Positions 142 through 20,287 of a stretch of DNA of 43,248 bases are shown piece by piece (the stretch's first letter is position 1; the number at the start of each line of letters is the position of its first letter). Both the position numbers and the translations under genes were made by a program. The DNA comes from Bacilli bacterium. GTDB lineage: Bacteria > Bacillota_I > Bacilli_A > RF39 > UBA660. Under the pieces are notes generated by a model. It saw only the letters and a list, made by a program, of their open reading frames with translations. It did no database searches and was not told the DNA's origin. The stretch spans positions 1 to 43,248 of the forward strand of contig JAFQID010000020.1 of NCBI GenBank assembly GCA_017397685.1. The letters are read 5' to 3'.

Positions 142-3100
142 AGATGATGATGGTGCTGGAAATGGAGGATTTAATAATGGTGGTGGTTCAGGTGGTTTAA
201 AATCTGATGGCCAATCCGGAAATTCGAATGATAATACTTTTACTGAATCTTATGATTTTCATGAAGAACAATATTCATCTGAATTAAATGATGTTCAGCA
301 ACAGGCTACAAAATTGCAGCAAGATGTTTCTATAGATGAAATTTCACTTGTTGCGGCTGTTAATAAAATCAATTCTTTCGATGCAAGTTCTATTGAATCC
401 TGTGTTAGTGGAATAATTTCATCATTAAATGGTTACAATAGATTAAGAAAATTTTATTCTAGTGCCAATTTGATAATTTTGGGCGAAGGTGTAAAAAATT
501 TTTTGTCTTTAGCAGATGTTTCGTTTTCTAGTATAAAAGAGAATCTAAATAAACTACTTGAAAAATTAAGGCAATCAAATCCTGTTTTCGATGAGTATGT
601 TGGGTTTATGTCTATGAATGATCAATTTGGTGATGATGGAGCTTTTGAATTACAAAAAAAATTAGAAGAAATGGGTGCTACTAAGGAAGATATAACTTCA
701 ATATATGAAGAGTTAAGTGCGTATGCTGCAAATAGTACTATAAAAAATCTTGAGAGTTTAGAAGAGGAAGATTATAATTATAAAGAGTCTTATTTTTATA
801 ATACGGGAGAAAGTAGAGAAAAGGTAAAGCAAGATTATATAGATTATGCTATGCAAATTTCTCAAAATTTATTTTTGGGATTAAATATCGGAATATATGA
901 TAAATTAGGAACTTCTCAACGGGAGATTAATAATTATACTGTTAAAAATTATTTAAATAAAGATTATTCTAATAGAGGTGATAATGAAAAAGCTCTTGTT
1001 GAAAATATATATCTTTATGAATTAGGTTTAAGTGATGATGAATTAACCCAAAGCGATATAGATACTTGTAATTTAATTACTGAGGATTATAGAAATTTAT
1101 ATAATACATCAGATTTTACTAATAGAGAACTAGATATTATTGAAAAGGCTGCATATATTGCTTCTTTTGATAAAGATGGTAATTTTAGATCTTTTGAAGA
1201 TTTAACAATTACTGCAGATGAAAAAGAGATTGTTATTCCAGCAAGATCTAAACATGGAAATGAATTGTTTGATTTTTTCACGGAAATTACTGAAAAAAAA
1301 GATATTAGAGAAAGAAGTGAACTTGCCGAATATGTTTATTTAAATCATGAACTTTATGATATTGAAAGAATTAATTTAAATGATGCTACTGATACGTTAT
1401 ATTCAATAATAGGTACTAATGAAAATGGTAAAAGTGTTACAACTGTTGATGAAAATGAGCGAGATAAGATAATAGATGATTATAATGATGCGGTAGATAG
1501 TTATTTTGGTAAAATTGATGATATTCAAGTTTTTAATATGGTATCTGTTTTACAAAATTATAATAGTGGTAATATGGATTTATATTATCAATATAGAGAA
1601 GGATATGATACTATACTTAATTTTGATATGTTCTTTAATGAGGAGGTTAATAATAGATATATTGATTTTAAGGATTCTTTGGTATCTAATGATATTGCTA
1701 AAGGAGAAAGTCATGCTTTGGCAGAGGAAATGAGAGACTATCATACTAATCTTTTAATTAGTGAAGAAAATGAATTATTAAATTTAAATAAAAAAAATAA
1801 AAATGACTTATTAGGAGAAAGACTATCTTTAGCTAACGCATATGATTGGGATAAATATCAAGTAGAAATTGATGGTTATGATGAAAAAATTAAAGAAAAT
1901 GAGGAAAGATTACGGTATTTAAATGATGAATCAATAGCTATTAAAGAAAATATTAAAAATTTATATATGGATAATATTTTTAAAAATGAACAAATGAGTG
2001 ATTTTTCTCAAAATGTATATTCTAGAATAGCGGGAATTGGTCACGAAGGAGATTCTGTAAAAATTTTGGAAGATGGTAGGCGTTTACATTCTTCTGGAAA
2101 GATTGTTTGTATTGATAAAAATGGAAATAAAATTGATGATGTATCTGATGAAGAAATAGCATTGGCTATGTTTTCTGATTCTAAAGCGGGTGTTTTAGCA
2201 AAAGAGGCACATGAAGATTATCTTTCATCTGGAGTTCTTGATTATTATGAAAATCTTTCTTTCTTGAGAAATAATGCGAGTTCTGAGGATGTGACAAGGC
2301 TTATTTGTTGTTTAAATTATATAAATAATACGGCTTCCAATCAATTACCTAATTATATTAAAGAATTAAGTGATATTGGTTTTGAAATGGAAGCAAGCAG
2401 ACTTGCAGATAAATATTTATCTCAATATGACGTTGATACGAGAATAGAAAAAGTCGCTGTTGGATCATGGCTTTCGGCAATTATTCCGGCTGTTCATGGC
2501 ATTAGTGAACATATCAAGGGCTATGGTAATCTACTTGGTGGCGCTGATGGAAAAGCAACTGTAGAAGAAGCTAAGTGGAATTATATAATGAGTGGCGTTA
2601 AAGATATTTCTGATGTTGATTATTATGTAATGCAATCTTCTATAAGTGTTGGGAATATGGCTATTCCAATTGCTGCTTCAGCTTTGACACATAATCCTAA
2701 TCTTGGTGTAATGTTAATGGGACTTTCTGCTATGGGAAATAATATGGAATCGGCTTTACAAGAAGGTATGCCATATAATGCAGCTGTTGTTTATGGTGCT
2801 TTAACTGGTGCTTCTGAAGCACTTTTGGAAAAGGTTATTGGTGGTATTCCTGGGTTAAGTAATGCTGCTACTATTGGTGCTAGAGGTGTAGTTAAAAATT
2901 TGATTGGTGAATCCAAAGAAGAAATGATTCAAGAAATGTTAGATCCAGCATATAAAGATTTTGCTAATTGGTTATTTCCTAGTGATGATTTTTCTAGTTT
3001 TAGGGATTATGAATCAGTATTTGATTATATAAGTGATTACGGAACAAACAAAATAAACTGGGAGGCAGTAAAAGATGCTGGTATTTCGGCATTATTGACT

Positions 3101-6100
3101 GCTGGTTTATTTAATAGTGGAAAAATTATGTATGCTGGAAAGTCTTATATGTTAACCGGTGATTTTGCAACCATTGAACATTTACAAAATAAGTATAGCA
3201 ATCTTAATTTAAGTAGTGCTAAAGTACAAGAAATGTTAAAGGTTGATTTAGATATTATTTCTAGAAGTGGAACAGATATTAGTTTACTTAGAGATAAAAT
3301 TATGTCTGAAGAAGGTTTTCTTGATGATTATAATAAATTTAAAGAAGAAGCAAAAAAATCTATGAATGATGTAGAAAAAAGTTTTTCAATGTCAGATTAC
3401 GCGACAATGAAAGCTATTGATCTTATTAGTGTTGAGTTTGATACTTTAAATAATTTGAAAACAGATTTAAATGCTGAAATGGATGAAGTTTTGTCTGAAA
3501 TAAGTTCTTTAAAAGAAGAAAATAATAGTCTTGAATGGGATGAGGACAAAGAAGTAGTTTTAAATGATTTAAGAAAAGTAATTAATGAATATATAAGTTT
3601 GTCAAATGAAATAGAAATTATCGATACAAAACTTGGAAATAGAGTCAGTATTGAAAGTATTCAGGATTCTAATTCATCATTAGAAACTCAGTTAGATATG
3701 GTTTTAGATTCTATTAAAAATGTTGATTTAAAACAATCTCAAAAAGCTTTATTGGGTATTTCATTATTTAATATTCAAGATAGATTAAAAGGTAATTATG
3801 ATAAATTAGAAACAGGATATAATGAACTTATAAACGAATATTTAAAAGATATTGAAGTTTTAAGTATAGATAAGAATAATACACAAAATATATCAAGAAT
3901 TAATGAATTAAAAGAGTTTATTAATGAATTAAAACTTAATATTGAAGAAATAAATAAAAAAAGAAAAGTATTATATCAAAAGTTGGGTGTCAAAGAAATT
4001 TCTGGATATATTTCGGATAATGCTAGTGTAGTACAAGAATCGTCAGTTGACATAATTGAAAACAATCCAAATATTAATAAGGAATCAAGTGAATATAATG
4101 AATATATTTTAGCAAAAGAAAATTATGCTACTGCTACAAAAAATTATGATAACTTTTATCAAGATTTTGTAAAAGATAATAACACTATAAAAAATAAAGA
4201 TTTATTAGAAAAAAAGGAAAAAGAATTACGAGCTGCTATGTTTAATGTTTATCAGGTTTTATTTGAGAAGAAAAATATTTTGCTTGCTAGTATGAATAAA
4301 GATGTAAATGTTGAAAGTGTTAAAGATGCAGACAATTCAAATTTAACATCTGTTACAAAAGAAGAAGTGTATGATATTTTAGTTGAAGAAAGTACTGTTA
4401 AAATTGATAAAGAATCTGATGAATATAAAGAAAATATAAAAAAATTAATTGGTTTGCTTGTTGCTGCAAGAGATTATAAAGCTGCTAAACAAGCTAATAA
4501 TGTTATAGAAAACAAAGAACTTATAGCGGAGAGACGTTCTGATGTTGTTAATGCTCTTAAGAGTATAATTGAAAATAAAAAAAGTTTAATGGGAAATGAA
4601 AAAATTAACGAAGAAAACACATATGATGAAAATCCTATAGAAGTAGAAGAAATTAAATTAGATAATAATGTTCAAGAAGTAAAAACAAAATATATTGATG
4701 GAAATTATATAGAATTACAAGAAATTGAAACAACTGATAATGTTCAAGGAATAAATATAAAGTATCCTGATGATAATGTTTTAGTTGAGGGTGTAAGTTG
4801 TCAAATTGTTATGCCGAGCGCTTTAGTTGAATATTTAAATATTGATGGATTTAGTGATATATTTATTAATCAAAATGGTGTTTATGTTTTAAAAAAAGCG
4901 GATCCAAATACTAAATATGAAGTCTTAAAAACTATTGAAAATTTTTTAAGTTCGGAAATTAATGTTTGGTCATTAGGGGATGAAACACTTTTAGATACTT
5001 GGAATAATGGTGTAAAAAATTATGAAGATAGTTTTTTATCTCAGGCAAAAGTTTTATTTGAGCAAGGTAAGGTTGAGCAAGCAAATAATGTATTAAAGGA
5101 TTTGATCACAAAAATAAATGATTTGAGGTATGAGTTGTTTAATTTGAAAACTTCAAATGAAAATTTTGGAGAATTAGTTGAAAATCAACCTGAAATAGAA
5201 ATTAAAGAGCAAACAGTAAATGATATACAAACTAGTGAAGTTGTAAATGAAGCAAATAGTGAAACTTTTGATATAGATTTTCAAATTAAACAATGGGAAG
5301 ATGAATTATTATATTTGGCTCAGAAGCAAGGTAAAACTTTGGAAGAATTATCAAAAACTAAAGGATCTGTTCAAACTATTTCAGAATATATTCAAAAAAG
5401 AGCTAGTGAATTAGCAACAAAGTTAAGGAGTCATGCAGAATCTATTGAACCAAAAATAACTTTGGATTTAATGGCATTGTGTAAAAAATATCAGTCTGCT
5501 GAGCTTGTTGGTCTTGATCATAAGTTTAAAGGGATAGAGAGATTAACTGGAAAAATTATTAATGATATTAAAAATTTTGGCAGTGTAGAAAATTCTGCAA
5601 ATAATATTGGAGATAGTTTGCGTTATACGGTGAGAATTGATGATAAAAATTATGTTCGTTATGTCAGTAGTTATTTGCATAATTTAGAAAAACAAGGATA
5701 TAAAGTTATTAATTTTAGAAATACATGGGCGAATAGTAATGCTACTTATAAAGGAATTAATACATCAATAAAAACACCAGATGGTGATATATTTGAGTTA
5801 CAATTTCATACACCAGATTCATATAATACAAAAGAGTTTTTGAATCATAAGTATTATGAGTTATCTAGGAATCCTAATTTGGATTGGCAGATTGTTAGTT
5901 TGGCTAACAAAATAATGGTAGCTAATCAAACAAAAGTAGTTAATCCACAGTATGTAGATAATTTTAATTATTTTAACATAATGTTTACAAATATTCCAAA
6001 AAAATATGCTTATGATAAAGTAATATCTAAAGCAAGTTTAAATGGTACTATTCCGTCTAATTTAGTTATTGATGATATTAATGTTTTAAATTCGTTTGGT

Positions 6101-7084
6101 ACAAATATTTTGGAAACAATAAAGAGTATTAAAAAGATTTATGGTGAAAATTCTGTTCAATATATTTCCGCTAAAAGTTTAGCTTTAAGGATGTATCTTC
6201 AATCTCAAGATATTAAATTGGATCCTTCAACAAATTATGCATATGATGATCCAAAAGCTTTAATTAAGAAAGTAAGTGAGATAATTAGTTCAACGGATGA
6301 TGTTCCATATACATATTTTTTGGACGAGAATGCTGTTTTTGATTATTTTAAAGAACAATCAGAAGTGTGGAAGCAATATGAAAAACCAGCAATGGAATAT
6401 GTAAATGAATTAAAAAAGAAAAACTCTTTTAATCATGGTTGGAGAGCATGGGCTGGTATAGCTGCAGATGAGTCAGTTGATTTAAATATTAGAAAGTTTG
6501 CTGCAATGAGGGCATTTACTGGACAAGGTTATATTACTATTGCTGAAATGATGAGAAATGGTGATCCTATTGATGATTCGATTTTTAGTGCAATATATCT
6601 TTTATCTGAAGAATTGTCTAGTTCTGTTCATACTGTAAATGAGCCGGTAGTTATGTTTAGAGGAGTGGATGATTTAAATTTCTTGTTTGAAAAGTACAAA
6701 AATGCTGGTGTGAAAGCTGATATTGATGCAATAAAGGTTCATCTTAAAAATCAAGGTTATTCTGCTTTAGAAATATATTCTGAAGCACAATTAAGAGCTT
6801 CTGAAAGTGATTTGTCTTTATTAGCTGATGGTTCTAAAATTATTGCTGATAATTCTTTTATATCTGCAACTCCACTTTATGGAAAAGGTTTTACATATAA
6901 GCAAGTTGTTGAAGTTATTAAGGTTCATCCTGGAGTTAAAGGTTCGTTTGTATCAAAATCATCACAACATTCTTCAGAATGTGAGTTTACATTTCAAGCT
7001 GGTGAAGGAAATAGAATGGTTATAGAAGGGGTAAAAAGAATTGGAAGTCAAATTTTTGTATTTACTGAAATTGTTCCAGAATAA
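2..7084 (+). CDS. Giant polymorphic toxin (5' partial): RelA/SpoT-like + ADP-ribosyltransferase
   Basis: The frame is open from the left edge, so the true start and any secretion domain lie outside the window; 2360 residues are visible (numbered here from base 2). The order is: acidic repeat and Gly-rich linker (1-70); long helical region; a segment with small-residue-rich hydrophobic stretches (about 870-960) resembling the pre-toxin/delivery part of large secreted or phage-borne toxins; long Lys/Glu coiled coil (about 1110-1600); RelA/SpoT-like domain (about 1830-1955) with D1871/R1874 in GDSLRYTV, a Y-K-G-I step, E1932 in ELQFHT and H1949 before YY; ADP-ribosyltransferase domain (about 2130-2360) with FTGQGY, R2220 in MFRG, S2288-A-T and E2326-C-E2328. 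These are the family's expected catalytic positions. Domain calls are by motif reading; the substrates are inferred as (p)ppNpp or tRNA for the first and an unknown target for the second. There is no terminator before the next genes. Confidence 0.88.
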   Translation, partial: SDEEEKDNPSDEDNSEESNENDTDGSSDEDNSEESDEEEKDNPSDEEDDDGAGNGGFNNGGGSGGLKSDGQSGNSNDNTFTESYDFHEEQYSSELNDVQQQATKLQQDVSIDEISLVAAVNKINSFDASSIESCVSGIISSLNGYNRLRKFYSSANLIILGEGVKNFLSLADVSFSSIKENLNKLLEKLRQSNPVFDEYVGFMSMNDQFGDDGAFELQKKLEEMGATKEDITSIYEELSAYAANSTIKNLESLEEEDYNYKESYFYNTGESREKVKQDYIDYAMQISQNLFLGLNIGIYDKLGTSQREINNYTVKNYLNKDYSNRGDNEKALVENIYLYELGLSDDELTQSDIDTCNLITEDYRNLYNTSDFTNRELDIIEKAAYIASFDKDGNFRSFEDLTITADEKEIVIPARSKHGNELFDFFTEITEKKDIRERSELAEYVYLNHELYDIERINLNDATDTLYSIIGTNENGKSVTTVDENERDKIIDDYNDAVDSYFGKIDDIQVFNMVSVLQNYNSGNMDLYYQYREGYDTILNFDMFFNEEVNNRYIDFKDSLVSNDIAKGESHALAEEMRDYHTNLLISEENELLNLNKKNKNDLLGERLSLANAYDWDKYQVEIDGYDEKIKENEERLRYLNDESIAIKENIKNLYMDNIFKNEQMSDFSQNVYSRIAGIGHEGDSVKILEDGRRLHSSGKIVCIDKNGNKIDDVSDEEIALAMFSDSKAGVLAKEAHEDYLSSGVLDYYENLSFLRNNASSEDVTRLICCLNYINNTASNQLPNYIKELSDIGFEMEASRLADKYLSQYDVDTRIEKVAVGSWLSAIIPAVHGISEHIKGYGNLLGGADGKATVEEAKWNYIMSGVKDISDVDYYVMQSSISVGNMAIPIAASALTHNPNLGVMLMGLSAMGNNMESALQEGMPYNAAVVYGALTGASEALLEKVIGGIPGLSNAATIGARGVVKNLIGESKEEMIQEMLDPAYKDFANWLFPSDDFSSFRDYESVFDYISDYGTNKINWEAVKDAGISALLTAGLFNSGKIMYAGKSYMLTGDFATIEHLQNKYSNLNLSSAKVQEMLKVDLDIISRSGTDISLLRDKIMSEEGFLDDYNKFKEEAKKSMNDVEKSFSMSDYATMKAIDLISVEFDTLNNLKTDLNAEMDEVLSEISSLKEENNSLEWDEDKEVVLNDLRKVINEYISLSNEIEIIDTKLGNRVSIESIQDSNSSLETQLDMVLDSIKNVDLKQSQKALLGISLFNIQDRLKGNYDKLETGYNELINEYLKDIEVLSIDKNNTQNISRINELKEFINELKLNIEEINKKRKVLYQKLGVKEISGYISDNASVVQESSVDIIENNPNINKESSEYNEYILAKENYATATKNYDNFYQDFVKDNNTIKNKDLLEKKEKELRAAMFNVYQVLFEKKNILLASMNKDVNVESVKDADNSNLTSVTKEEVYDILVEESTVKIDKESDEYKENIKKLIGLLVAARDYKAAKQANNVIENKELIAERRSDVVNALKSIIENKKSLMGNEKINEENTYDENPIEVEEIKLDNNVQEVKTKYIDGNYIELQEIETTDNVQGINIKYPDDNVLVEGVSCQIVMPSALVEYLNIDGFSDIFINQNGVYVLKKADPNTKYEVLKTIENFLSSEINVWSLGDETLLDTWNNGVKNYEDSFLSQAKVLFEQGKVEQANNVLKDLITKINDLRYELFNLKTSNENFGELVENQPEIEIKEQTVNDIQTSEVVNEANSETFDIDFQIKQWEDELLYLAQKQGKTLEELSKTKGSVQTISEYIQKRASELATKLRSHAESIEPKITLDLMALCKKYQSAELVGLDHKFKGIERLTGKIINDIKNFGSVENSANNIGDSLRYTVRIDDKNYVRYVSSYLHNLEKQGYKVINFRNTWANSNATYKGINTSIKTPDGDIFELQFHTPDSYNTKEFLNHKYYELSRNPNLDWQIVSLANKIMVANQTKVVNPQYVDNFNYFNIMFTNIPKKYAYDKVISKASLNGTIPSNLVIDDINVLNSFGTNILETIKSIKKIYGENSVQYISAKSLALRMYLQSQDIKLDPSTNYAYDDPKALIKKVSEIISSTDDVPYTYFLDENAVFDYFKEQSEVWKQYEKPAMEYVNELKKKNSFNHGWRAWAGIAADESVDLNIRKFAAMRAFTGQGYITIAEMMRNGDPIDDSIFSAIYLLSEELSSSVHTVNEPVVMFRGVDDLNFLFEKYKNAGVKADIDAIKVHLKNQGYSALEIYSEAQLRASESDLSLLADGSKIIADNSFISATPLYGKGFTYKQVVEVIKVHPGVKGSFVSKSSQHSSECEFTFQAGEGNRMVIEGVKRIGSQIFVFTEIVPE

Positions 7085-7100
7085 TATTATAATTAATTTA

Positions 7101-7109
7101 TGATATAAT
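7101..7109 (+). promoter_or_regulatory. Extended -10 promoter for antidote genes
   Basis: TGATATAAT is a perfect extended -10 element (TGnTATAAT). It lies 17 bases after the toxin stop codon and about 30 bases before the next start codon, which has its own AAGGAGAGG ribosome site. No good -35 is seen, as is usual for extended -10 promoters. It would let the antidote genes be made without the toxin. Confidence 0.6.
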
Positions 7110-7139
7110 ATGATTATGTAAGTTTTTAAGGAGAGGTTT

Positions 7140-7367
7140 ATGAATGATAAAATTAAAGAAGATTTAAAGGAGTTCTTTGGTGGACCAACTATTCTTGATG
7201 TTGGTGGACAAAAATTAACTGATGAAGAAATGATAGAATATTTAAAACATAGAAAAGAATTGATAAATAAACAAAAAGAACAAATATCTGCGGAAATGAA
7301 AAATAATCCTAAATTGTTTAATGTTGAAAATAAAACGGAAGTCATTTTTCATTCTCCCAGGAAATAA
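7140..7367 (+). CDS. Small hypothetical protein in antidote operon
   Basis: This gene encodes a 75-residue charged protein that I do not recognise. It has no signal peptide, membrane segment or cysteine. The middle (residues 25-55) is helical and rich in Glu and Lys, after a short GGPTILDVGGQ stretch; the C-terminus is basic. The ribosome site AAGGAGAGG at 7128-7136 supports the ATG. It is the first gene after the toxin and 14 bases before the ADP-ribosylhydrolase gene, so it is co-transcribed with the antidotes. It could be a targeting adaptor or chaperone for the toxin, or an extra immunity protein; nothing in the sequence decides this. Confidence 0.75.
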   Translation: MNDKIKEDLKEFFGGPTILDVGGQKLTDEEMIEYLKHRKELINKQKEQISAEMKNNPKLFNVENKTEVIFHSPRK

Positions 7368-7381
7368 AGAAGGTGAGATAA

Positions 7382-8575
7382 GTGAAAGTTAAAGATGCTT
7401 TAATTGGTTTTTCAGTTGGTGATGCTTTGGGTGTTCCGATTGAATTTACTCATAGAAATAATGATGTTAATACTTACTTAAAAGATATGATTGGTTTTGG
7501 CTCTCATAATGTACCTGCTGGGACATGGAGTGATGATACTTCTATGACAATTGCTACGATGGATTCATTAATACAAAATAATGGAATATCATTAGAAGAT
7601 ATTATGGAAAAATTTGTCCAATGGCTTAGTATGAGTAAATATACTGCTACTGATAAAGTTTTTGATATTGGTAATACTACATATAAAGCTTTACATAAGT
7701 ATGAAACGAATCGTGATATAAAAACTTGTGGTTCTAACGAAGAATGGGAAAATGGTAATGGTTCTTTAATGAGAATGTTGCCAATAGCTTTATATTTATA
7801 TTATAATAACTTTTCTGCTGAAAAAGAGGTAGATATTATTAATTCGGTATCTGCTTTGACACATGCTCATGAAATAAGTGTTTTAGGTTGCAATATATAT
7901 TGTGATTTTATAAAACAATTGTTAAAAAATAAAGGTGATTATAAGTTAAGTTATGATTTTATAATCAATAAAGATTATTCTAAGTATTATTCTGAGCAAA
8001 CAATAAACAAGTATAGTAGAGTTTTAAATGGAAGTATAATAGATTTAAATATGAGTGATATTAAATCCTCTGGTTATGTTATAGATACTTTAGAGGCTAG
8101 TTTATGGTGTGTCTTGAATAATGATTCTTATGAAAATAGTGTTGTTCAAGCAATTAACTTGGGAAATGATACAGATACTATTGGTGCTATAACAGGTTCT
8201 ATGTGTGGAATAATTTATGGATTAGAAAATATTCCGGAAAGATGGATTAATAGTTTAAAGAAAATAAATTATTTGAACGAATTGTCTGAGAAATTTGAAA
8301 CAGTTGTATTAGGAAAAAAATTAGAATTTACTGATAATTATTCTGATAAAGTTTCTCCTAGTATCTCTACAAATGTATCTTATTATCTTTTAAATGATTC
8401 AATTATTTTTATGATTGATAATGATTCAATGTTATTTTATAGATTAAATGAAAATAATGAATGGGTATTATCTAATGATTTGGTAAGTGTTTTTCATGAT
8501 TCTGTATATAATTATGTAAAAGTAGATTCAAGTTATGTAGCTTCTTTTATTTCTCAAAGGAGTAAAAAATTATGA
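7382..8575 (+). CDS. ADP-ribosylglycohydrolase (DraG/ARH family), candidate immunity protein
   Basis: This family cleaves ADP-ribose from modified protein side chains using a two-metal site. The visible signature is complete: GDALG near residue 14, WSDDTSM with D51/D52/T53, GNGSLMRMLP at 125-134, a THAHE segment at 160-164, and GNDTDTIGA at 261-269 with D263 and D265. Residues 1-300 form the catalytic domain; about 95 further residues, rich in aromatic and Asp/Asn, form an unrecognised C-terminal extension. The start is GTG, chosen because AGAAGGTGAG lies just upstream and the family begins a few residues before this motif. It lies just downstream of a toxin ending in an ADP-ribosyltransferase and overlaps the HD gene by 4 bases. 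Established precedent for ADP-ribosylhydrolases as immunity factors (for example Tri1 against Tre1) makes antidote its likely role. Confidence 0.92.
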   Translation: MKVKDALIGFSVGDALGVPIEFTHRNNDVNTYLKDMIGFGSHNVPAGTWSDDTSMTIATMDSLIQNNGISLEDIMEKFVQWLSMSKYTATDKVFDIGNTTYKALHKYETNRDIKTCGSNEEWENGNGSLMRMLPIALYLYYNNFSAEKEVDIINSVSALTHAHEISVLGCNIYCDFIKQLLKNKGDYKLSYDFIINKDYSKYYSEQTINKYSRVLNGSIIDLNMSDIKSSGYVIDTLEASLWCVLNNDSYENSVVQAINLGNDTDTIGAITGSMCGIIYGLENIPERWINSLKKINYLNELSEKFETVVLGKKLEFTDNYSDKVSPSISTNVSYYLLNDSIIFMIDNDSMLFYRLNENNEWVLSNDLVSVFHDSVYNYVKVDSSYVASFISQRSKKL

Positions 8576-9030
8576 TATATACTTCTGATGTAAAAAAAGC
8601 ATTAAATTTAATGTATAATTCTCATATTAAGCAATATGATAAATCAGGTGTTCCGTATGTTTTTCATCCTTTTCATGTTGCTGAACAAATGGATGATGAA
8701 GATTCAACTATAGTTGCATTGCTTCATGATATTATAGAAGATACTGATGTGACTATAGAAGATTTAGTATCTTTAGGTTTTAGTGTTCAAGTAATTAATG
8801 CTCTTAAGTGTTTAACTCATTTGGAAGATGAAGATTATTTTGATTATATAAAAAGAGTATCTAATAATGAAATTGCTAAAAAGGTTAAAATCCAGGATTT
8901 AAAGCATAATATGGATTTAAGTAGATTATCGAGTGTTAGTGAGAAAGATTTACAGAGAGTGGAAAAATATAAGAAGAGTTTAAAATTTTTATTAGATTCA
9001 TATGAAGATAATATAGGAAAATCTATATAG
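8572..9030 (+). CDS. Small alarmone hydrolase-like HD protein, candidate immunity protein
   Basis: A 152-residue stand-alone HD domain of the SpoT/MESH1 type, which removes pyrophosphate from (p)ppGpp-like nucleotides or, in some toxSAS antidotes, from modified tRNA. Visible metal and catalytic motifs are H32 (FHPFHVA), H52-D53 followed by E56-D57 (LLHDIIEDT), and D109 in KIQDLKHNMD with N113. No synthetase, TGS or ACT domain is present, so it is hydrolase only. Its ATGA overlaps the stop of the ADP-ribosylhydrolase gene, indicating translational coupling. A hydrolase of this kind is what is expected to counter the RelA/SpoT-like domain of the upstream toxin. Family assignment is strong; the partnership is inference from chemistry and position. 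Confidence 0.9.
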   Translation: MIYTSDVKKALNLMYNSHIKQYDKSGVPYVFHPFHVAEQMDDEDSTIVALLHDIIEDTDVTIEDLVSLGFSVQVINALKCLTHLEDEDYFDYIKRVSNNEIAKKVKIQDLKHNMDLSRLSSVSEKDLQRVEKYKKSLKFLLDSYEDNIGKSI

Positions 9031-15584: not shown

Positions 15585-16976
15585 ATGAAGAGTAAAAAGA
15601 GTGTTTTAAAAATTACGCCTATTATATATACTGTTAATATACTTGTTTTACTTGCGATTTTAGTTTTTTATGTTGCGAGGGGTGTACATTATTATTTAGA
15701 AGAAAATGGTAAAAAAGTAGGTAGTGATATTGTCTATTTTGGTGATTATATTACTAAGAAACAGAGTCGATTAGATGAGACTAAAGGTCTTGTTTATGAT
15801 AAAGAAAAAAATATTTATGTTTATAAGGGCGATATAGATGATAATTATTTATATTATTCGGGTATTATGTATAGAATACTTGGTATAGATAATGAAAATA
15901 ATGTTAGAGCTGTTGCGGATAAAAATGTAACTATTATGTATTCCGGTCTTAATAGAGGATATGAAAAATCATATGTTAGGACTTGGCTTAATATAATTGA
16001 AGATGAAAATCATAGTGGTATATATATGAATAATTTTTATGATTATGAAAGTATACTTGCTCATAGTTATGTGTGTAATGATGTAATTGATGATGTTAAT
16101 AGTATCACTTGTGAAAATAATACTAATAATGATTATGTTTCAATATTATCTTTAAATGATTATAGTATTGCTGGTGGTAAGGAAAGTTTTTTAAATAATG
16201 GAGAAAACTTTTATTTAGCAACTATTAATAGTGAAAATAATAATTATGTGGTTAGTAATACTGGTGATATTATTCTAAATAATATTTATACTAGAGCTTA
16301 TGGTGTAAGACCGGTTATTACTATTGATGCTAGTGTTAATTTACTTGCTGGGGATGGAAGTAGTAAAAACCCTTATATAATTGAAAAACATGATATTAAT
16401 AGTTTAAGTGATGTTTATGTTGGTGATATCGTTAAAATATCAGGATCTAATTATAAAGTTATTTCAATAGGTGAAAATGTATTTGTTGCTGGAGTGGAAT
16501 CTATTAAAGATGGTGAAGATGAAGTTTTAAAGAGTTTTGGTGAGAGCAATAAATATAGTACTTCAGGTAGTGCTGGAAAATATTTAAATAATGATTTTTA
16601 TGAATCTTTAAGTGATAAAGATTTAATTGTTAAGAGTAATTATTATGTTGGTAATAATAGTATGTCTGATTTAAGTTATACTCTTAAATATGATAGTAAA
16701 GTAAGCGCTAAGGTTGGTATGCTTTCTCTTGGAGATTTATTTATTCATGAAGTTGGTGGTGTCTTTACTATTTCTAGATCTATTGAAAGTGATGATGTAA
16801 TAGAAGTAATTAATAATGAAGGTAATTTATTTGGAGATTTTGTAAGTTCTAAATATGCGTTAAGACCAGCATTTTATTTAAATGGTAATGCTATTATTGA
16901 AAGTGGTAAGGGTACTAATGATAATCCTTATGTACTTGGAGGTATAGAAGATGAAGAAGAAACAAAAGAAGAGTAA
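15585..16976 (+). CDS. Membrane-anchored protein with two RPVI/RPAF-type modules
   Basis: A 463-residue protein with one N-terminal anchor (about residues 10-30) and an extracellular part. Two copies of a module are visible: each starts with a V-Y-F/V-G-D beta strand (IVYFGDYI; VYVGDIVKI), includes YR-I-L/YKVIS strands, and ends with (V/L)RP followed by I-T-I-D or F-Y-L-N and a GDGS/GKGT...NPY closing motif (about 16303-16380 and 16860-16935). The style resembles DUF6273-type surface modules. The same ending recurs in the protein encoded at 18086. It lies 9 bases after the DUF4956 gene and overlaps the glycosidase gene by 26 bases, so it belongs to the CotH/VTC operon. No enzyme motif is recognised; it may bind the surface polymer. 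Confidence 0.8.
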   Translation: MKSKKSVLKITPIIYTVNILVLLAILVFYVARGVHYYLEENGKKVGSDIVYFGDYITKKQSRLDETKGLVYDKEKNIYVYKGDIDDNYLYYSGIMYRILGIDNENNVRAVADKNVTIMYSGLNRGYEKSYVRTWLNIIEDENHSGIYMNNFYDYESILAHSYVCNDVIDDVNSITCENNTNNDYVSILSLNDYSIAGGKESFLNNGENFYLATINSENNNYVVSNTGDIILNNIYTRAYGVRPVITIDASVNLLAGDGSSKNPYIIEKHDINSLSDVYVGDIVKISGSNYKVISIGENVFVAGVESIKDGEDEVLKSFGESNKYSTSGSAGKYLNNDFYESLSDKDLIVKSNYYVGNNSMSDLSYTLKYDSKVSAKVGMLSLGDLFIHEVGGVFTISRSIESDDVIEVINNEGNLFGDFVSSKYALRPAFYLNGNAIIESGKGTNDNPYVLGGIEDEEETKEE

Positions 16977-17997
16977 TAAGAAAACTAGTAAGTTTAGTAT
17001 ATTTTTAATAGTAATAGATGTTATTGCTATCTTTTGTTTTGCTCTTGCATATGGGCCGTTTGATCCTTTTAAGGACTGGCTTGTGACTACAGCGATGAGA
17101 ACGGCAACTCATAGATATTTTGCTTATATTTTGTATGATGAAGAAATTGTTAATAGAGTACTTGATAATAATAAAGTTATTGAAGTAGAAGATGATACAG
17201 ATACCTCTAAGATTATTTTTAATTCAAGTCCTGATACTGGGGTATATGAAAGTATATATGAGGAACAAATTCTTAAAAGAGATGAAGGTAATGATGTATA
17301 TAAAATAGTTAATCTTAAGGGTGATGGATATAAAGGGTATATGGCTGTTATTTATGATCCGTCTAGAATAGAACTTGTATTTTCTGATAAGTATGGGGGA
17401 GCTGGTGAATATTTATCAACTATGGCAAAAGATAATAATGCTTTAGTTGCGATTAATGGTTCTGGGGTTCAGCATTCTGGTGGTAATAGGGTTACTGGTA
17501 CTGCGATTAAGAATGGTAAGGTTTACGCTAAAGGTAGAGATATTAATAAAGGTGGGGGTCTTATTGGTTTTACTAAAGATAATGTTTTAATGCTTACTAA
17601 AAAGAGTGCTAAAGAGGCTATTAAAGCTGGTATGGATAGGGCTGTTGAGTTTGGGCCATTCTTAATAGTTAATGGAAAGGAATCTACTTTTAAAGGAAAT
17701 GGTGGATGGGGAATTGCTAATAGAACGGCTATTGGTCAAAGACAAGATGGTATTGTTTTGATTATTGTTATTGATGGTAGAAGTAGTGAGTCTCAAGGAA
17801 TTAGTATGGTAGATTTAAAAGATTTATTTGTTAGATACAAAGCATATAATGCGGCTAATCTTGATGGAGGAGGAAGTTCTGCGATGTATGCGGTTGTTAA
17901 AGGAAAAGGGAAACTTATTAATAATCCACAAGGATTTGGGTATTCTGGAGAAAGATATTTACCTAATGCTTGGATGGTACTTCCTGAGAAAAAATAA
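16951..17997 (+). CDS. Phosphodiester glycosidase (NAGPA-like), membrane anchored
   Basis: A 348-residue protein with a Lys-rich start and one membrane segment (about residues 14-34). The rest is the NAGPA fold: VAINGSG, GPFLIVNGK, NRTAIGQ, LIIVIDGRSS and the family hallmark NLDGGGSSAMY near the C-terminus. The family removes sugars linked through phosphodiesters, as in uncovering mannose-6-phosphate in animals; bacterial members act on wall or capsule polymers. GGAGG at 16938-16942, inside the previous gene, is 8 bases from the ATG. Last gene of the CotH/VTC operon, which suggests that the operon makes or edits a sugar-phosphate surface polymer (inference). Confidence 0.87.
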   Translation: MKKKQKKSNKKTSKFSIFLIVIDVIAIFCFALAYGPFDPFKDWLVTTAMRTATHRYFAYILYDEEIVNRVLDNNKVIEVEDDTDTSKIIFNSSPDTGVYESIYEEQILKRDEGNDVYKIVNLKGDGYKGYMAVIYDPSRIELVFSDKYGGAGEYLSTMAKDNNALVAINGSGVQHSGGNRVTGTAIKNGKVYAKGRDINKGGGLIGFTKDNVLMLTKKSAKEAIKAGMDRAVEFGPFLIVNGKESTFKGNGGWGIANRTAIGQRQDGIVLIIVIDGRSSESQGISMVDLKDLFVRYKAYNAANLDGGGSSAMYAVVKGKGKLINNPQGFGYSGERYLPNAWMVLPEKK

Positions 17998-18040: not shown

Positions 18041-18073
18041 AAAAATTTATTTTTTTTTATATGGATAATATTG

Positions 18074-18079
18074 TATAAT
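18074..18079 (+). promoter_or_regulatory. -10 box 7 bases before the next ATG (leaderless promoter)
   Basis: A perfect TATAAT in TTGTATAATAAAATTATG. Transcription starting about 7 bases downstream of the -10 would begin at or next to the ATG at 18086. No ribosome site lies between. Confidence 0.6.
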
Positions 18080-18085
18080 AAAATT

Positions 18086-19636
18086 ATGAAAATAAATAAG
18101 AAAATAGTATTACCAATTATTTTAGTTTTAATTGCAGGTGTATTTGTTATAACACTTGCTTATTTTGGTGCTGAAGTAATTGAAAATGGTAATAATCCAA
18201 CAGATGTTACAACTGGTAACCTTGATGTAAGTTTATCTGATAGTGCGGTTAGTGTTAGTAGTTTAAAACCTATATATGCACAGTATATAGATTCAATGGC
18301 TTTTAAAAAAGAGTTTACTATTACTAATGCTGAGGATTCACTTGATTCGTCAAATGATATATATTTAAATATTAGTAGTATATCTAATGAACTAAAGAAT
18401 CAATACTTTAAATATAAAGTAGTTGTAGATAAAAGTGAAAAATCAGGTGATTTTTCGAGTGCTGTTAATGGAGAAAGATTACTTATATATAATGATTTAG
18501 CTATTAAATCTAATACATCAAAAACTATTACTTTATATATATGGATAGAGTATGCTGAAGGAATAGACCAACTAGATATGCTTGGAACAGAGTTAAGTGC
18601 TAATTTGGTGATAGAGAGTACTGATAAGAAAATGTTGTGGTATAGTATGTGTACATCACAAAGTAATAATTTAAATTGTAAAATAATAACAGTTGAGTCT
18701 CCAAGTAGTGATGAAAATATAGATTTTTCGCAAATGTCAAGTAATACTAACGGAAAAGGTTTATATTATACTTCTAATCTATCATTAACTGAAGACTATG
18801 ATGGAGATGGAGAAGGAGAAAGAGTATATTACTATAGAGGAGCTGTTGAAAACAACAATGTTAGATTTGGAGGATATTGCTGGAGAATAGTTAGAACAAA
18901 TGAAGATGGTTCAGTAAGACTAAGATATAATGGAGTATACGAAAACGGAACATGTCCAACAACAGGAACAGAAGTAAGAATAAATAATGAAGATTATGAA
19001 TTTTATGAAAGTAGTGATAATGAAAAATATAATGAATATATATGGAAAGATGGAACAGGAGAGAGCCTTGCAAAATCAATAATAGATGCATGGTATACAA
19101 CAAGTGGACTTGAGAGTTATGCAGACAAAATCGCAAATGTACCATATTGTGCAGATAAGAGCAATCCGACTAAATCAGATACATCGCTTATATTCTATGG
19201 AGCTGCGAATAGATTAATGGACATTACTACACTTTCAGCGAAAAGTGATGCTCAGCCAACATATAAATGTGAAATGGCAGAAGATAAACATACTGTAAGT
19301 GGAGATACCTGGGGAGGTAATGGAAAATTATCTAAACCATTAGGCCTTTTAACGGCAGATGAAATTGCTTTTGCTGGTGGTAGAAGATATAACAGCGATG
19401 GAAGTTCAAGCAATAGTACATATTATTTATATACAAGTGGTAAGTATTGGACAACAAGTCCTTTCTACTGGCCTGGCTATAGTGCTGGTGTGTTCTGTGT
19501 TGACTTTACAGGCGCTCTCGTTAATGACTTTGTGAACACTTCTCATGGCTTGTTACCAGTAATTTCTCTAAAAGCGGAAACTATGGTTAGCGCTGAGGGT
19601 GATGGAAGTTATACAAATCCATTTGTGGTAGATTGA
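18086..19636 (+). CDS. SipW/TasA-type exported surface protein with RPVI-type C-terminal module
   Basis: A 516-residue protein from the ATG; an in-frame TTG at 18071 lies inside the -10 box and is rejected. Residues 4-25 form a signal/anchor, followed at once by AYFGAEVIENGN and a TasA/CalY-like beta domain (about 25-200). The middle holds an Asp/Gly-rich DYDGDGEGE calcium-type loop and a GGYCWRIVRT strand. The end has YWTTSPFYW, a GVFCVDFTG segment and LLPVISLK, then GDGSYTNPFVV, the same closing module as in the protein encoded at 15585. Several cysteines could pair outside the cell. The final 120 bases or so are clearly richer in G+C than the rest. It probably forms or decorates surface fibres; binding partner unknown. 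Confidence 0.82.
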   Translation: MKINKKIVLPIILVLIAGVFVITLAYFGAEVIENGNNPTDVTTGNLDVSLSDSAVSVSSLKPIYAQYIDSMAFKKEFTITNAEDSLDSSNDIYLNISSISNELKNQYFKYKVVVDKSEKSGDFSSAVNGERLLIYNDLAIKSNTSKTITLYIWIEYAEGIDQLDMLGTELSANLVIESTDKKMLWYSMCTSQSNNLNCKIITVESPSSDENIDFSQMSSNTNGKGLYYTSNLSLTEDYDGDGEGERVYYYRGAVENNNVRFGGYCWRIVRTNEDGSVRLRYNGVYENGTCPTTGTEVRINNEDYEFYESSDNEKYNEYIWKDGTGESLAKSIIDAWYTTSGLESYADKIANVPYCADKSNPTKSDTSLIFYGAANRLMDITTLSAKSDAQPTYKCEMAEDKHTVSGDTWGGNGKLSKPLGLLTADEIAFAGGRRYNSDGSSSNSTYYLYTSGKYWTTSPFYWPGYSAGVFCVDFTGALVNDFVNTSHGLLPVISLKAETMVSAEGDGSYTNPFVVD

Positions 19637-19732: not shown

Positions 19733-20287
19733 ATGGAAATGATTAACAGAAATCCTAAAATATTTGTTGTCGGTGGGAAAGCAAGGCATGGTAAAGATAC
19801 GTTTAGTGCTTTTCTTAAAGAAGAATATGAAAAAAGTGGTAAGAAAGTTTTGATTACTTATCTTGGAAAATATATTAAGTATTATGCTAGAGAGATAACA
19901 GGTTGGGATCTTAGTGAAGAAAATAAACCAAGAGAGTTACTTCAACAACTTGGAACTGAACTTATAAGGGAAAAACTAGGTAAATATGATTTATATGTTA
20001 AAAGAATGATAGATGATTTAGAAATATTTTCATATTTTTATGACATAATAATAGTAAGTGATGCGAGGCTTAAGTATGAGTTTAATAGTTTAAGAGAGGT
20101 TTATCCTGATATTATAAGTGTTATGATTTATAGACCTGATTTTGATAATGGACTTACTCCTGAGCAAAAATTGCATGCAACTGAGATTGATTTAGATGAT
20201 TTTGAAGATTATAATTATAAGGTTATTAATACTACTTTTGATAGTTTAAAAGATCAAGTTAAAAATATATGTAAGGAAAATGAATAG
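19733..20287 (+). CDS. P-loop nucleotide kinase-like protein
   Basis: A 184-residue protein with a Walker A motif near residues 12-19 (GKARHGKDTF), a conserved RE-LQQLGTE helix at about 65-75, and a strand ending IIVSDARLKYE that carries the Walker B-like Asp. This pattern fits (deoxy)nucleoside-monophosphate kinases of the phage-type/dephospho-CoA-kinase-like group. GGAGG upstream supports the first ATG; a second ATG three codons later is possible. It is 10 bases before pgk and probably shares its transcript. I see no confident promoter. The exact substrate cannot be read from the sequence. Confidence 0.72.
   Translation: MEMINRNPKIFVVGGKARHGKDTFSAFLKEEYEKSGKKVLITYLGKYIKYYAREITGWDLSEENKPRELLQQLGTELIREKLGKYDLYVKRMIDDLEIFSYFYDIIIVSDARLKYEFNSLREVYPDIISVMIYRPDFDNGLTPEQKLHATEIDLDDFEDYNYKVINTTFDSLKDQVKNICKENE

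Follow-up and report, generated by a model that had tools for sequence, protein, structure and literature searches.

Diversity-generating retroelements (DGRs) serving more than one gene have been described in a few bacteria. In Treponema denticola, one template and one reverse transcriptase (RT) are accompanied by two to seven dispersed targets per strain, with extra "suspicious" targets carrying excessive mutations and leftover targets where the core DGR has been lost (PMC4891356). In Thiohalocapsa PB-PSB1, nine DGR loci and 15 targets are reported, with conflict-system targets of the NACHT/STAND type and a spread shaped by transposons (PMC10907252). In the Bordetella phage BPP-1, homing depends on a 3' IMH element and the target stands beside the DGR in the phage (PMC12875486). 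Regarding target scaffolds, the C-type lectin fold is the known one (PMC6328139), and DUF6273 domains, which have been likened to C-type lectins, carry the variable region (VR) of gut-phage DGR targets such as the tentaclins (PMC10743442) and those of Faecalibacterium prophages (PMC11792537). A large survey of 2021 states that its own method would not detect remote DGR targets (PMC8144416). Our literature search found no work on DGRs in RF39, and among the matches listed none on dispersed, paralogous or expanded targets apparently treats this group.

The DNA analysed here, referred to as the window, is a stretch of 43,248 nucleotides corresponding to contig C17 of a 1.27-Mb MAG (49 contigs, 94.45% complete) of the RF39 lineage of Bacilli. 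This genome encodes a DGR on another contig, and one gene of the window is a dispersed paralogue of the DGR target. The segment 19458-19570 of this gene is probably the VR of a dispersed DGR target; with moderate confidence, this copy was diversified in the past and is now an orphan. The features of concern are the following:

16951..17997, + strand: phosphodiester glycosidase (NAGPA) gene, left flank (Pfam PF09992; synteny)
18071..19636, + strand: gene of the DGR-target family, 521 aa from a TTG start, with an alternative ATG start at 18086
18653..19633, + strand: modelled C-terminal stretch, with the predicted lectin-like target domain from about 18800
19458..19570, + strand: candidate VR, 113 nt long in alignment to the C23 and C13 template repeats
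19560..19590, + strand: 3' edge of the VR, site of a shared motif in other copies and putative IMH position; altered in the window
19733..20287, + strand: deoxynucleotide monophosphate kinase-like gene, right flank (Pfam PF21448; synteny)

The arrangement resembles that of T. denticola by its single template and RT with dispersed and leftover targets, and differs from it in that the latter is a spirochaete with fewer copies and partly lipoprotein targets, whereas 14 of the 26 copies tested here carry the DGR signature (PMC4891356). With Thiohalocapsa PB-PSB1 it shares targets explained in trans, incomplete DGR loci and domain shuffling, including the case of a locus whose non-variable VR matches the template of another locus; unlike that bacterium, the window genome has two DGR loci and shows no visible transposon at the window copy (PMC10907252). 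The parts of the element (template, Avd, RT) and its A-to-N logic are those of BPP-1, with a gene order of TR-Avd-RT on C23 instead of avd-TR-RT (PMC12875486). As for the DUF6273 phage targets (PMC10743442, PMC11792537), 12 of the 29 members of an alignment of the window domain (A1, composed of this domain and 28 relatives taken from 43 found at loci with related RTs) match DUF6273 at E≤0.01; unlike those targets, the window protein matches no Pfam family, the gathering score of DUF6273 (PF19789) not being reached, and its gene lies on a bacterial contig that also carries a ribosomal-protein cluster.

The gene had drawn attention by its base composition. The first-pass annotation had counted 53 G or C among the 120 bases of 19441-19560 against 18 among the 60 bases before (19381-19440), and both counts are exact on recount (A23 C25 G28 T44 for the former); the segment does encode, as claimed, the YWTTSPFYW...FVNTSHG part of the 521-aa ORF. 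Contig G+C is 29.6%, and 527 of the 43,129 sliding 120-base windows (1.2%) reach 53/120, falling into 11 separate regions of which 19441-19560 is one and several others are ribosomal-protein genes. By itself, therefore, the shift is weak evidence and proves nothing, and it gains meaning when the other copies of the gene in this genome are considered. Of the 14 copies with positive results in both DGR tests described below, 13 have a G+C of 0.46-0.58 in the homologous stretch and one (C2d) has 0.39, against 0.28-0.43 in nine non-DGR control copies. The template repeat has a G+C of 0.43, and at the template-adenine sites G+C has risen from 0 to 0.36 in the window copy, so that template composition together with changes at template adenines accounts for the raised G+C of the VR. 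A swapped foreign cassette as source of the shift is unneeded, given the template value and a shift common to the paralogues. The feature is better delimited by its 113-nt alignment with the C23 template repeat, which spans 19458-19570.

The first-pass annotation had also suggested a search for a template repeat with a nearby RT, and this search was productive. An RT model detected four RT genes in the genome, and two of these (C23 and C13) have copies of the window gene nearby. At the C23 locus, the target gene is followed by the template repeat, Avd and RT. Between the 113-nt template and the VR of the adjacent target, 15 of 33 adenines differ and none of the 80 other bases (p=5.7e-10). The RT is a 506-aa ORF with an RVT_1 match which reads IGNMTSQ and YMDD, IGxxxSQ being the mark of DGR RTs. 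The Avd (119 aa) belongs to the bAvd family, PF22296 (bAvd) scoring above cut-off for the C23 and C13 ORFs; the C23 ORF also has a PHROG match to "Avd protein of DGR", and NCBIfam DivGenRetAVD stays below cut-off (40.3 vs 80 bits). The C23 element is a DGR with all known parts, namely template, Avd, RT and target. The C13 element is a second, truncated DGR which has the same parts except that its RT frame is shortened to 313 aa; its template and VR disagree at 14 of 83 non-adenine bases. A PDDEXK_2 family transposase-like gene stands beside the RT at both loci (L044 6082-6951; L043 3-164), with a Pfam match for the C13 copy and a near-identical start of the same gene at the C23 contig end; as this gene adjoins both RTs, perhaps the entire DGR stretch was duplicated. 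The two other RTs were rejected as DGR enzymes, their best PADLOC models being RT_UG26 for C35 (L045 2177-3376) and RT_UG17 for C49 (L046 2706-4638), which are both defence models; the C49 RT is followed by an RT-associated SLATT protein.

The first-pass reading would have been undermined by the absence of a second copy in the genome, and copies are in fact numerous. The last 237 bases of the window gene give 13 DNA matches and the protein gives 32 protein matches, the window being included in both. The DNA matches all lie in gene copies; the protein matches fall on about 28 genes, four being second pieces of a gene, and 26 copies were tested after setting aside two genes that lack the C-terminus. 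Several copies sit at contig ends. Fourteen of the 26 pass, each at p<0.01, both a codon test and an A-excess test, for which one of the two templates sufficed. The G+C and paralogue comparisons used 15 names, that is these 14 and C3 (A-test p=0.07); C33 and C8, which pass the codon test and not the A-test at 0.01, were placed in neither group. The nine controls were picked after the results of the two tests and are more diverged, which blunts them as controls. DNA homology to the window copy starts at 18069-18073 in four copies (18045 in L042), or, if similarity suffices in the C-terminal part alone, at 18630-18835, and it ends at 19622-19632 in 10 copies (19677 in L019), more diverged copies stopping sooner. 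No longer shared flank, which would point to a mobile unit around the gene, was seen in the DNA homology among the copies.

The VR lies near the 3' end of the ORF, the stop codon of which ends at 19636, a position proper to DGR targets. Against the C13 template, 19 of 33 adenines and 19 of 79 non-adenine positions differ (p=8e-4), and against the C23 template 18 of 33 and 25 of 79 (p=0.02). By these rates the VR qualifies as that of a DGR target, differing from the template mainly at template adenines, with the limit that in absolute number the differing positions are as numerous at non-A as at A (19 and 19) or more so (25 and 18). Because the window copy matches both templates poorly, the A-bias against templates alone is modest. 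Compared with 14 paralogues, the VR differs at 0.64 of the columns that are adenine in the C23 template and at 0.30 of the others (permutation p=5e-5, the lowest attainable with 20,000 shuffles), or at 0.62 and 0.28 respectively by the columns of the C13 template. The nine controls differ among themselves at 0.52-0.68 of the A columns and 0.49-0.69 of the others (C23 template), that is an excess of at most 0.11 as compared to 0.34 in the window copy. Part of this excess could stem from ordinary selection if the template adenines fall on codons for naturally variable residues. Third codon positions are C or T in 26 of the 31 VR codons and in 230 of 463 upstream (p=8e-5), the skew that rewriting of the template codons AAC/AAT as NNC/NNT would produce.

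After recent homing, a VR is expected to resemble the template more than its flanks do. The non-A identity of the window VR to the templates is 0.68 (C23) and 0.76 (C13), and its 600 upstream bases have an identity of 0.79 and 0.82 to the respective template-adjacent targets; that the VR is less template-like than its flank is not significant in the C13 comparison (p=0.12). With 19/79 and 25/79 non-A mismatches and flanks that are no more diverged, the copy does not behave as a currently served target. At the 3' edge, the motif GTTTCCTTAAAAGCGGAAAC occurs unaltered in seven of the 26 copies and with a single mismatch in C32a and C32b; judging from its position, this shared motif would be the IMH. 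The window reads ATTTCTCTAAAAGCGGAAAC there, three bases off GTTTCCTTAAAAGCGGAAAC, and thus has no IMH-like 3' element matching that of the cis target. Since the VR mismatches both templates at non-A positions and its 3' edge is altered, we regard the window copy, with moderate confidence, as a formerly diversified and now orphaned remote target. This status is conditional on a MAG completeness of 94.45%, at which a third template could be missing. The suggestion of a swapped or hypervariable cassette in the first-pass annotation is supported for its DGR-target part, template adenines marking the variable columns of a predicted lectin-like domain, and not for a recent swap or gene conversion, as the non-A bases of the VR are no closer to the templates than the flanks are to the neighbouring targets and no donor was seen. 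Within this genome, the cis VR of C23 is the only clean template match. Among seven copies in which the VR was tested for exceeding its flank, the window copy included (fractions taken from rounded identities), C32b is the only suggestive one, its upstream flank being closer to the C23 target and its VR to the C13 template (p=0.008, uncorrected).

Relatives of the RT were confirmed in 421 stretches of GTDB genomes, and the best 80 of these 421 loci, which come mostly from MAGs titled Bacilli, Tenericutes, Firmicutes or Erysipelotrichaceae and a few others, were analysed. A homologue of the window protein (E≤1e-8) is present in 43 of these 80 loci and a repeat pair with A-biased differences (p<1e-5) in 44, which makes the window domain a regular target of this DGR clade. 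Among viruses, 333 RT relatives were confirmed, of which the best 80 are 30-40% identical; a search of viral contigs for a relative of the window protein gave a single pattern match, unconfirmed. In 78 genomes of the taxonomic family, a 29-sequence profile (E≤1e-20) gave 0-34 target-domain matches per genome, large counts being possibly low as at most 31 candidates per genome were scored. Six genomes have 23-34 matches (G076 34, G093 31, the window genome 28, G049 25, G067 25, G092 23) and the others at most 15, with bAvd matches numbering 0-2 per genome. Large expansions of the target domain recur in different genera. An RT match at E≤1e-15 is found in four of the six expanded genomes (one each in G076 and G093), and none at this threshold in G049 and G067 despite their 25 target-domain matches each. 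G093 has RT and Avd, with no template near the RT that resembles the VRs of the 19 regions examined; these last three genomes perhaps hold orphan repertoires or have missing contigs. In G076, eight of 15 examined remote copies align with the template of that genome above the score cut, all eight with an A-excess at p<0.001. For one of them, G076:C17, 76 of 78 non-A bases agree with the template, against just 411 of 500 identical bases in the upstream flank (p=9e-5); for the remaining seven, template identity is not above that of the flank (p 0.28-0.99). One remote copy of the eight tested in G076 thus appears to have been homed in trans, which is good evidence, as read from sequence comparison, that homing in trans occurs in this group beside relaxed copies like that of the window.

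Such homing bears on another reading of the window gene, according to which it would be a remote target that is still being homed in trans, the source being a third template absent from the assembly or lost in a contig gap. A MAG in 49 contigs at 94.45% completeness with several target copies at contig ends leaves room for such a template, the VR remains an open reading frame, and trans homing has been proposed for Thiohalocapsa (PMC10907252) as well as seen in G076. Nevertheless, a search of the genome with the C23 template gave two VRs and no template other than those of C23 and C13, the 13 matches to the window VR all lie in gene copies, and the 3' edge is three bases off the motif of seven copies. 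The templates of 44 relatives include none that fits the window VR better at a similar alignment length; the lowest rate of non-A mismatches, 7/33 in L143, comes from 33 columns. This reading is accordingly held to be unlikely.

Two further explanations dispense with a mutagenic element acting on the gene. Gene conversion or recombination among the paralogues would shuffle the segment in a genome that offers about 28 related genes, and the discordance between flank and VR in C32b (one copy of seven) would fit, although trans homing would give the same. However, conversion alone would neither focus differences on template-A columns nor produce the codon skew, and identity to the 14 DGR-type copies is 0.56-0.67 in the window VR compared with 0.62-0.84 in the upstream flank, the VR exceeding the flank only for C3 (0.65 vs 0.62), so that no donor is visible; such shuffling is quite improbable. 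The segment could otherwise be a fast-evolving exposed loop of a conserved domain which is G+C-richer by chance, as 1.2% of the contig windows are, and the nine copies that have no DGR signature also vary at this stretch. What makes ordinary divergence very improbable is that none of these nine passes the codon or A-excess test at 0.01 while the window copy passes both, and that its A-column excess lies well above theirs.

For the preferred reading, an orphaned VR of a dispersed DGR target, the following course is proposed. Template RNA would be reverse-transcribed with random bases opposite adenines, as in known DGR biology, and the cDNA would replace the homologous 3' end of the target gene. 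Conversion of AAC/AAT template codons to NNC/NNT would, with a template G+C of 0.43, yield both the composition and the codon shift, and the randomised residues would belong to the binding face of a protein that is lectin-like and probably anchored at the surface. The window copy would have undergone this diversification in the past and then been orphaned. More tentatively, and as a possibility rather than an expectation, the DGR might be the engine of a genome-wide repertoire in these uncultured Bacilli, in which one or two RTs and templates would supply tens of scattered genes for lectin-like, surface-anchored proteins whose N-termini are exchangeable, a few being refreshed in trans at a time and the rest, among them the window gene, forming a slowly decaying library.

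The element itself is of a known kind, and it is the copy number and the recurring expansion that are of interest. With 28 profile matches here and, in two relatives that each have a single RT match, 31 and 34, the copy number exceeds the target numbers given for T. denticola (PMC4891356) and Thiohalocapsa (PMC10907252); no record is claimed, since a survey of 2019 mentions far higher VR counts for some records (PMC6642488). How one template is shared among many genes becomes testable with such genomes. Furthermore, a composition bump pointed here to a mutator element on another contig, which suggests a cheap screen for remote DGR targets: in A+T-rich genomes, one would look for genes whose C-terminal part combines NNY codons with an elevated G+C.

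The window protein has a hydrophobic N-terminus, an N-terminal module (about residues 1-190) which occurs alone in relatives as frames of 185-219 aa, and the C-terminal target domain; it is probably surface-anchored. The C-terminal 327 residues, in alignment with the 28 relatives of A1, were modelled with AlphaFold2 (mean pLDDT 81.4, pTM 0.83). The best structural alignment of the predicted lectin-like domain by VIA-align is with 9qa6, a domain of the Thomasclavelia ramosa IgA peptidase (residues 40-303, Z 13.3, 188 residues, 3.3 A). The next rows are the Legionella Lcl C-terminal domain (Z 6.4), a Bacteroides fimbrial protein (6.1) and CarF (5.8), with many C-type lectin domains further on (Z 4.3-5.5); VIA-align asks for a Z of 8, below which every row except 9qa6 falls. 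Foldseek gave no match to the predicted domain in the PDB at E≤0.001, and a sequence-profile search for solved structures none at E≤1. The model is consistent with a lectin-like C-terminal domain, predicted and not proven. Two genes upstream of the window gene, 15585-16976 encodes a protein with a DUF6273 match and two endings of the type RP(V/A)...G.G...NPY.

Regarding the insertion site, 15 stretches from genus relatives were examined and both flanking genes were readable in 11. The target gene is present at this site in none of the 15 stretches. The flanking-gene matches lie 12-231 nt apart in nine of the 11 relatives; the other two have another ORF, taken as a probable acyltransferase, within a gap of about 1.1 kb. 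Given this absence in all relatives that could be judged, the simplest reading would be that the window gene was inserted between the neighbouring genes in this lineage. Across the 18 genomes of the genus, the RT (E≤1e-30) is found in the window genome only and bAvd in two; matches to the window protein at E≤1e-20 number 30 in the window genome as compared to 0-3 in the other 17. A genus relative (G014, L092 6003-8607) carries another DGR-like locus, with an RT-like ORF, a bAvd protein and a pair of 145-nt repeats with 88% identity, which ends a different C-terminal domain.

Elsewhere in the window, the region 314-9030 contains a 2256-aa ORF that has no Pfam match, followed by an ADP-ribosylglycohydrolase gene and by an HD-domain gene scoring just below the Pfam cut-off, with a WXG100 protein farther along; as a guess, this region possibly encodes a secreted toxin with its antagonists.
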